This document shows, piece by piece, positions 1 through 831 of a DNA stretch of 64,000 nucleotides. The notes below the pieces were generated by a model. The model did not search any database, was not told the DNA's origin, and was given only the letters and a program-made list of their open reading frames with translations. The translations under genes were made by a program, and so were the position numbers. The stretch is from NCBI GenBank assembly GCA_030833845.1, contig JAURGK010000004.1:1-64000 (forward strand), written 5' to 3'. Position 1 is the stretch's first letter. Every line of letters begins with the position of its first letter. The stretch is from Crocinitomicaceae bacterium (GTDB lineage: Bacteria; Bacteroidota; Bacteroidia; Flavobacteriales_D; Crocinitomicaceae).

Positions 1-92
1 TACTCTATACCTCTCAACTCTTGATCAATCATTGACAGTCCATTTACCACTTGATCATCGCTACTTACTCTGCAATAAATTCCTACTTTCAT
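1..92 (-). CDS. serine recombinase, N-terminal end only (runs off left edge)
   Basis: Reading leftward from the ATG at 92 gives 30 uninterrupted codons before the window ends. The peptide begins MKVGIYCRVSSDDQ and continues with NGLSMIDQ. The Y-x-R-V-S-x-x-x-Q pattern is the signature of the resolvase/invertase catalytic domain, in which the first Ser of VSS (residue 10) is the expected nucleophile. The NGLS-x-x-x-Q continuation resembles large serine recombinases of Bacteroidota and Firmicutes elements more than small resolvases, but size cannot be judged here. It is divergent from a 5'-truncated yifB, which suggests that it is the integrase of an element inserted into that gene. Family assignment is firm; the subtype (integrase or transposon recombinase) is inference. 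Confidence 0.8.
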   Translation of the reverse strand, partial: MKVGIYCRVSSDDQVVNGLSMIDQELRGIE

Positions 93-129
93 TTTAATTT
101 TTTTCTAATATAATAACTTTTACTTTAAC
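93..129. other. probable mobile-element / chromosome junction (attachment-site end)
   Basis: About 37 bp of very AT-rich DNA separate the recombinase start codon (92) from the first base of yifB homology (about 127-132). Serine integrases usually have their attachment site next to the integrase gene, so one att half-site is expected here. In the yifB frame there is a stop at 106-108, and the conserved residues resume only with the Thr-Phe-Thr-Asp-Ile segment from about 130. The exact crossover dinucleotide cannot be fixed without the other end of the element or an uninterrupted yifB from a relative. Confidence 0.55.
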
Positions 130-831
130 ACCTTCACAGATATAGGGCTCATTGGCGGAGGTAACTATCCGCAACCCGGTGAAATTTCATTGGCACACAA
201 TGGCGTATTATTTTTGGACGAACTTCCCGAATACAAAAGACACGTACTCGAGGTATTGCGGCAGCCTCTCGAGGACCGATCAGTAAACATTTCAAGAGCA
301 AGGTTTTCAATAGATTACCCAGCCAATTTTATGTTAGTTGCCGCCATGAATCCTTGCCCGTGTGGCTTTTTAAATCATCCTGAGAAATCTTGCGCTTGTC
401 ATCCCAACACAGTGCAGCGCTATCATCAAAAAGTATCTGGCCCCCTACTTGACCGCATAGATATGCACATCGAAGTAAGTCCGGTAAAATACCATGAACT
501 ACAAGATACAAAATCAAGTGAAAGTAGCCAAGCAATACGTTTGCGCATTCTTGCTGCCCGTCAGATCCAACAAAAGAGATATGCACAACAACATGGAACC
601 TATGCCAATGCACATATCAGTAGAAAACAGGTCGAAGAATTCTGCAAGTTGAAGCCCGATGGCCAAGGCATTTTGCAAATGGCATTAAAAAAGCTTGGGC
701 TCTCGGCGCGGGCTTATGAGCGCATTTTAAAAGTTGCACGCACCATTGCAGATCTTGATGGCTCAAATTCAATCGAATCGCAACATATCAGCGAAGCGAT
801 TCAATACAGAAGCTTGGATAGAAGTAATTAA
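127..831 (+). pseudogene. yifB: yifB/comM Mg-chelatase-like AAA+ ATPase, 3' part only
   Basis: About 233 C-terminal codons of a YifB/ComM family protein, which is normally about 510 residues. Present: the GGG-x-x-P-x-PGEISLAHNG segment, Walker B (VLFLDE), the MNPCPCG motif, the arginine-finger region SGPLLDRID, and the Mg-chelatase C-terminal domain ending AIQYRSLDR. Missing: the N-terminal half including Walker A. An in-frame stop lies at 106-108, and the sequence left of about 127 belongs to a recombinase gene on the other strand. The TTG at 190 lies inside a conserved motif, so it is not a natural start. The homologue ComM is a branch-migration helicase used in natural transformation. This copy should be inactive unless the element excises. 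Confidence 0.85.

Follow-up and report, generated by a model that had tools for sequence, protein, structure and literature searches.

The window, the whole 64,000-nucleotide stretch that was analysed, comprises bases 1-64000 of C23, a 103,438 bp contig of a Crocinitomicaceae genome (G000; 44 contigs, 2.14 Mb, 94.7% complete). Two incomplete genes lie at its start. On the minus strand, positions 3..92 hold the start of the gene for a large serine recombinase (LSR, an integrase): 30 codons, after which the contig end cuts it off. On the plus strand, positions 139..831 hold the 3' part of yifB/comM, 230 codons and a stop, which match TIGR00368 positions 277-499 (E 2.3e-89). YifB/ComM is thought to aid recombination of incoming DNA. 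Between them, positions 93..138 form the right end of an element, from the LSR start to the crossover, with an arm, TTACTTTAA, at 120-128, ten bases from the core. The crossover dinucleotide GA, the attR core, occupies 139..140, which are codon positions 1 and 2 of the Asp in HHTISD. Since window base 1 is also base 1 of C23, the sequence left of the window cannot be read.

A sequence-only reading of this locus had seen only the 3' part of yifB on the plus strand, and this was borne out: the gene opens in the window at the Asp codon (139) and encodes the last 230 residues of YifB. The same reading placed the junction with the element at about 127; the actual boundary is the GA at 139-140. The in-frame stop that it noted at 106-108 is present, but it lies within the element and is not a sign of yifB decay.

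Translation of positions 92..3 on the minus strand gives MKVGIYCRVSSDDQVVNGLSMIDQELRGIE, in a frame that stays open up to the contig end. The 30-aa fragment alone has no Pfam match at a threshold of E 0.1. It matches an LSR profile made from other LSRs with E 9.4e-6, as expected from the earlier claim that a serine recombinase starts on the minus strand at 92, and it shares 73% identity, over 30 aa, with the LSR in the yifB element of G330 and 57% with that of G051. A serine recombinase catalytic N-terminus, of which 30 residues are seen, is thus encoded beside the attachment site. The gap from LSR start to core is 46 bp, where 35-40 bp had been claimed. The recombinase fragment and the split yifB at the window start are confirmed as a real observation.

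The missing 5' half of yifB was searched for and found on a second contig, C10 (21673-22508, plus strand, TIGR00368 positions 2-279). This piece ends in ...RKPHHTISD and is followed by an element-encoded ECVLK and a stop. From the core to the end of C10 there are 3,706 bp, opening with the partner attachment-site arm, which rules out that the 5' half sits directly left of the recombinase with no element between. The TIGR00368 search of G000 returned two strong YifB pieces, on C10 and C23, and two weak matches (E 1.7e-5 and 2e-4) inside longer frames of 845 and 456 aa. An intact yifB elsewhere, which would make the window copy an old fragment, was not found in this search of a 94.7% complete genome, where a copy on a missing contig is possible.

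Joined in silico, the two halves encode 508 aa and align over the full length, with zero gaps and 84.4% identity, to the intact YifB of locus L036; the alignment with L031 is just as good and includes one gap. When the halves are compared separately with the intact genes at loci L013-L042, both have L031, L036, L040 and L041 as their four nearest relatives. The join neither gains nor loses a codon. The two G000 junctions have GAT in common.

The partner core GA lies at C10:22507-22508, and attL on C10 consists of the yifB 5' part followed by GATGAGTGTGTGTTAAAGTAA. The C10 element end reads GA-TGAGTGTGTG-TTAAAGTAA, and the C23 element end, read outward, TC-TGTGAAGGTG-TTAAAGTAA. Taken together, the two ends make up an imperfect dyad with GA at its centre; an attP dyad around the core is expected of a large serine recombinase. 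This symmetry was scored over nine elements with both ends read (G000, G423, G437, G375, G270, G255, G236, G330 and G444). The summed score peaked at GA with 133; the 12 other offsets gave 45-71, and none of 2000 shuffles exceeded 83. Own pairs of ends scored 14.8 on average and mixed pairs 8.9. The G000 element matches at 18/24 arm positions, a score equalled by the best mixed pair, whose ends come from separate elements; G423 (8) and G270 (9) have weak dyads. In G168, G270 and G357 the base after GA in attL differs from the Asp codon, which points to a core of GA alone. The core of G444 was set by the dyad, not by its junctions, because these have 12 bases in common.

AbaR-type Tn7-like transposons make a five-base target duplication. 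The junctions here share fewer bases, three (GAT) in G000 and two (GA) in G270, and the ends form an LSR-type dyad with an LSR nearby. It is therefore extremely unlikely that a Tn7-like transposon of the AbaR/Tn6022 kind split yifB with the recombinase gene as a passenger, even though comM is described as a known AbaR target in passages of PMC11472951. A Pfam search at E 0.1 with the five element ORFs on C10 gave no transposition family, in an element whose middle is unseen.

The same site was sought with TIGR00368 in 100 genomes (G000 included), in the remaining 25 of 86 genus genomes, and in 395 genomes from the class. A match at E 1e-20 was present in 375/395 class genomes. From the class, 51 genomes whose best match was weak or that had two matches were chosen and re-searched, and stretches were read from 29 of them; some genomes with a single match of E 1e-158 to 1e-165 (e.g. 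G274, G282 and G487) and the 20 genomes without a match were left aside. An element at the GA of HHTISD was found in 15 genomes: at least 14 of the 395 class genomes (G000, G423, G437, G375, G270, G168, G357, G255, G413, G236, G330, G444, G398 and G137), which span nine family labels, and G051, of the same genus as G000. The 14/395 is a lower bound because 29 of the 51 suspect genomes were opened. The exact attL pattern matched one contig among the genome contigs and none among the viral contigs searched.

These genomes bear on whether the split could be an artefact of assembly or binning, with the ends of C10 and C23 chimeric or drawn from different strains. Both contigs do stop within the element, and ordinary contig breaks can cut yifB: apparent splits in G001, G011, G077 and G097 proved to be contig breaks, with the contig ends overlapping exactly by 28, 28, 23 and 121 nt, and were dropped as insertions. 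Against a misassembly, which the sequence-only reading had named as a danger, stand the shared GAT, the seamless join, the common nearest relatives of the halves, the matching attP arms with their dyad, and a breakpoint at this very base in other genomes, of which three (G423, G437 and G375) hold the whole element within one contig. We regard an artefact as very unlikely. Separately, G007 and G108, of the same genus and 99% and 95% complete, gave no strong YifB match, which may reflect loss, insertion or a missing contig.

In six more genomes (G053, G390, G483, G173, G285 and G277) a contig ends at the core or at most 3 bases off, without element sequence. In all but G053, hence in five genomes, the broken contig overlaps another that carries an intact yifB, by 141, 141, 149, 149 and 55 nt. 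Such overlaps resemble assembler word sizes, so the assembly appears to branch at the crossover; the populations of those five genomes may hold filled and empty forms side by side. The overlaps are at most an indirect sign of excision and reintegration by the LSR. G451 also has a 149-nt overlap with its break about 38 bases upstream of the core, so breaks of this kind also arise otherwise. In G357 and G413 attL and the intact yifB join are both present.

The window gene ends with its contig after 30 codons, and the one PF07508 match of G000 is an LSR at the end of C37. One explanation would make these two fragments a single gene, in an element lying between glmS and yifB, given that C37 ends in an LSR without its N-terminal part and C23 starts inside an LSR. 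C37 is otherwise chromosome-like, and its LSR ends antisense into the glmS 3' end, as do those of G504, G598, G111 and G019. The LSRs of G504 and G598, the two of these relatives that have an N-terminus (starts MEVLHILIRVST and METIHILTRVST), give no match to the window 30 aa at E 10, while the eight other GA-site LSRs do; this N-terminus test is weak because the LSR of G035, at another point in yifB, likewise gives no match. We consider a single gene highly improbable, and the C37 LSR was rejected as the remainder of the window gene since its relatives sit at glmS. On the evidence at hand, the sole PF07508 match of G000 belongs to another element, at the glmS 3' end. This second LSR (C37:39113-40192; L012, L057) runs with its last codons antisense into the end of glmS; it has relatives in six other genomes among 299 in the order, and all four that were checked end in glmS.

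An integrative element put into yifB/comM by its own LSR, at the P-H-H-T-I-S-D codons, is very probably what the window start records. The claim that the window begins at the right end of an integrated element is supported by the 5' half and element arm on C10, the shared core and the dyad. The LSR would pair attP, whose arms TTACTTTAA and TTAAAGTAA each lie ten bases off the central GA, with attB in yifB; both sites would be cut at GA and then joined. The products would be attL on C10 and attR, running from window positions 120-140 into the yifB 3' part. In the assembly yifB breaks after residue 279, with the first half gaining a short element-encoded tail and the second left without a start of its own. 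C10 and C23 would then be linked through one element, and the window LSR presumably made the insertion. YifB is probably inactive after the split, and recombination of transforming DNA would be lowered while the element is present. Excision by the LSR with a directionality factor would be predicted to restore yifB.

C10 and C23 both end inside the element, and its middle lies outside the assembly. Judged by position, all 3,706 bp on C10 probably belong to it. This part opens with two neighbouring small ORFs of 84 and 102 aa (C10:22543-23068), alike by eye and without a family match, and a 215-aa protein with an H-x-H motif; none of these three has a Pfam match. It also encodes a small serine recombinase of 205 aa (L061:4274-4900; Pfam Resolvase, E 2e-20), as well as a cation efflux protein (Pfam E 1.5e-17, with a marginal metal-binding domain besides). 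Small serine recombinases of about 200 aa, besides the LSR, were also seen in the elements of G035 (L043:7308-7922), G437 (L079:9311-9955) and G375 (L081:11017-11601).

We read the 215-aa protein as Rep-like. It has two weak relatives besides itself among 395 class genomes; two distant relatives retain the H-x-H motif. No relatives were found in viral contigs, plasmids or phages, and its structure model is poor (pLDDT 42.5). Four of the C10 ORFs were searched against PHROGs; with the element middle unseen, the small recombinase alone had matches (DNA invertase, integrase, and weak DNA-binding or unknown), and no phage structural genes were found among the four. By its Pfam matches, the visible part of the G000 element seems to carry no defence genes.

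An LSR was found in 9/15 GA-site elements; the stretches available for the other 6/15 showed none. The LSRs of G330 and G051, nearest of all to the window fragment, sit at the same GA, with starts about 52 and 41 bp from the core. They lie beside the yifB 5' half and the window LSR beside the 3' half, so the gene can occupy either side of the core. In G423, G444, G255 and G375 the 3' end of the LSR gene faces yifB, and the G437 LSR lies mid-element. In three of these, G423 (L078:1478-3220), G444 (L098:907-2631) and G255 (L088:1473-3137), the LSR frame ends a few bases past the core, inside yifB, and the last LSR codons may therefore change upon excision. GA-site LSRs are diverse, with 31-47% identity between the long ones among the best local alignments listed. 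In a tree of 16 LSRs, those from a second yifB site, near the codons for NPCPCG, group in a single clade with support; the tree is weak at its deep forks and has two long branches, so claims are limited to this clade and to the diversity at the GA site.

LSR elements were found at two further points within yifB, in five genomes near NPCPCG and in one before ILIGPPG. The five with yifB split near NPCPCG are G257, G434, G397, G209 and G445; their LSRs are about 50-65% mutually identical over the stretches at the break, and the core is TG, read by eye from G257 and G434 only. Four genomes were left out of this count: G385, also split near NPCPCG, whose 8 kb yielded no LSR and whose junctions differ, and G296, G258 and G194, which show no clear second junction. 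The element before ILIGPPG, in G035 of the same genus as G000, is complete at about 21 kb and has its own 595-aa LSR. Its ends fit, by eye, an attP of ACCTATTATT-AT-AATAATAGGT.

Four elements were read whole (G423, G437, G375 and G035; loci L078, L079-L082 and L043-L044), and 17 of their proteins, picked as defence-looking and without control elements, were screened. With that selection, 3/4 carry clear defence genes. The 12.7 kb element of G423 (L078) encodes GajA and GajB (Gabija) and a type IIG restriction enzyme, the 34.6 kb element of G437 an Avs2-type protein with IetA and IetS, and the G035 element (L043-L044) type III Mod and Res, a type III restriction-modification system. The 32.8 kb element of G375 has a cytosine methylase and weaker matches.

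A broader picture, offered tentatively and with slightly less than even confidence, is that yifB in this class may offer LSR-borne defence islands a dock with three berths. Distinct LSR lineages would use three fixed dinucleotides in the codons of conserved motifs (GA in HHTIS-D, AT before ILIGPPG and TG in N-PCPCG), several populations would contain both empty and filled forms, and phage defence would be gained in reversible exchange for branch migration in transformation.

Parts of this are already published. In the passages of Durrant et al. 2022 (PMC10083194) on this gene, LSRs choosing the magnesium chelatase/ATP-dependent protease gene make up 12.4% of predicted site-specific integrases. 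Those cases resemble ours in having an LSR-bearing element in the same gene; unlike the G000 case, the passages give no crossover base within it, and the main text has no word in Flavobacteri- or Bacteroid-. The prophage WO variant sr1WO of Wolbachia is described in PMC9203015 as integrating by an LSR into the magnesium chelatase gene, with target-gene portions flanking both sides as in the G000 yifB; sr1WO is a phage, whereas the G000 element shows no phage structural gene in the four C10 ORFs tested. In Acinetobacter, according to passages of PMC11472951, comM is likewise interrupted by mobile elements, AbaR and others, some with defence systems (CBASS, Zorya), and the interruption is linked to lower transformation; the AbaR cases are Tn7-like in a gammaproteobacterial host, and the G000 element is of LSR type. 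Searches of the open-access literature that joined yifB with a serine recombinase or integration site, or magnesium chelatase with a serine-recombinase insertion site, prophage attB or defense hotspot, returned no paper.

LSR targeting of this gene is thus published, as the passages of PMC10083194 and PMC9203015 indicate, and the added detail is the exact crossovers and the several berths. A further addition is an attB/attP pair resolved to the base, from an LSR lineage of an uncultured genus of Flavobacteriales type. The results suggest that the published LSR preference for the gene resolves into at least three crossover points of different LSR lineages. Conservation of the target codons predicts that many Bacteroidia offer a site to such LSRs, and the defence cargo of the complete elements makes it testable whether loss of a recombination gene is set against a gain in phage defence.
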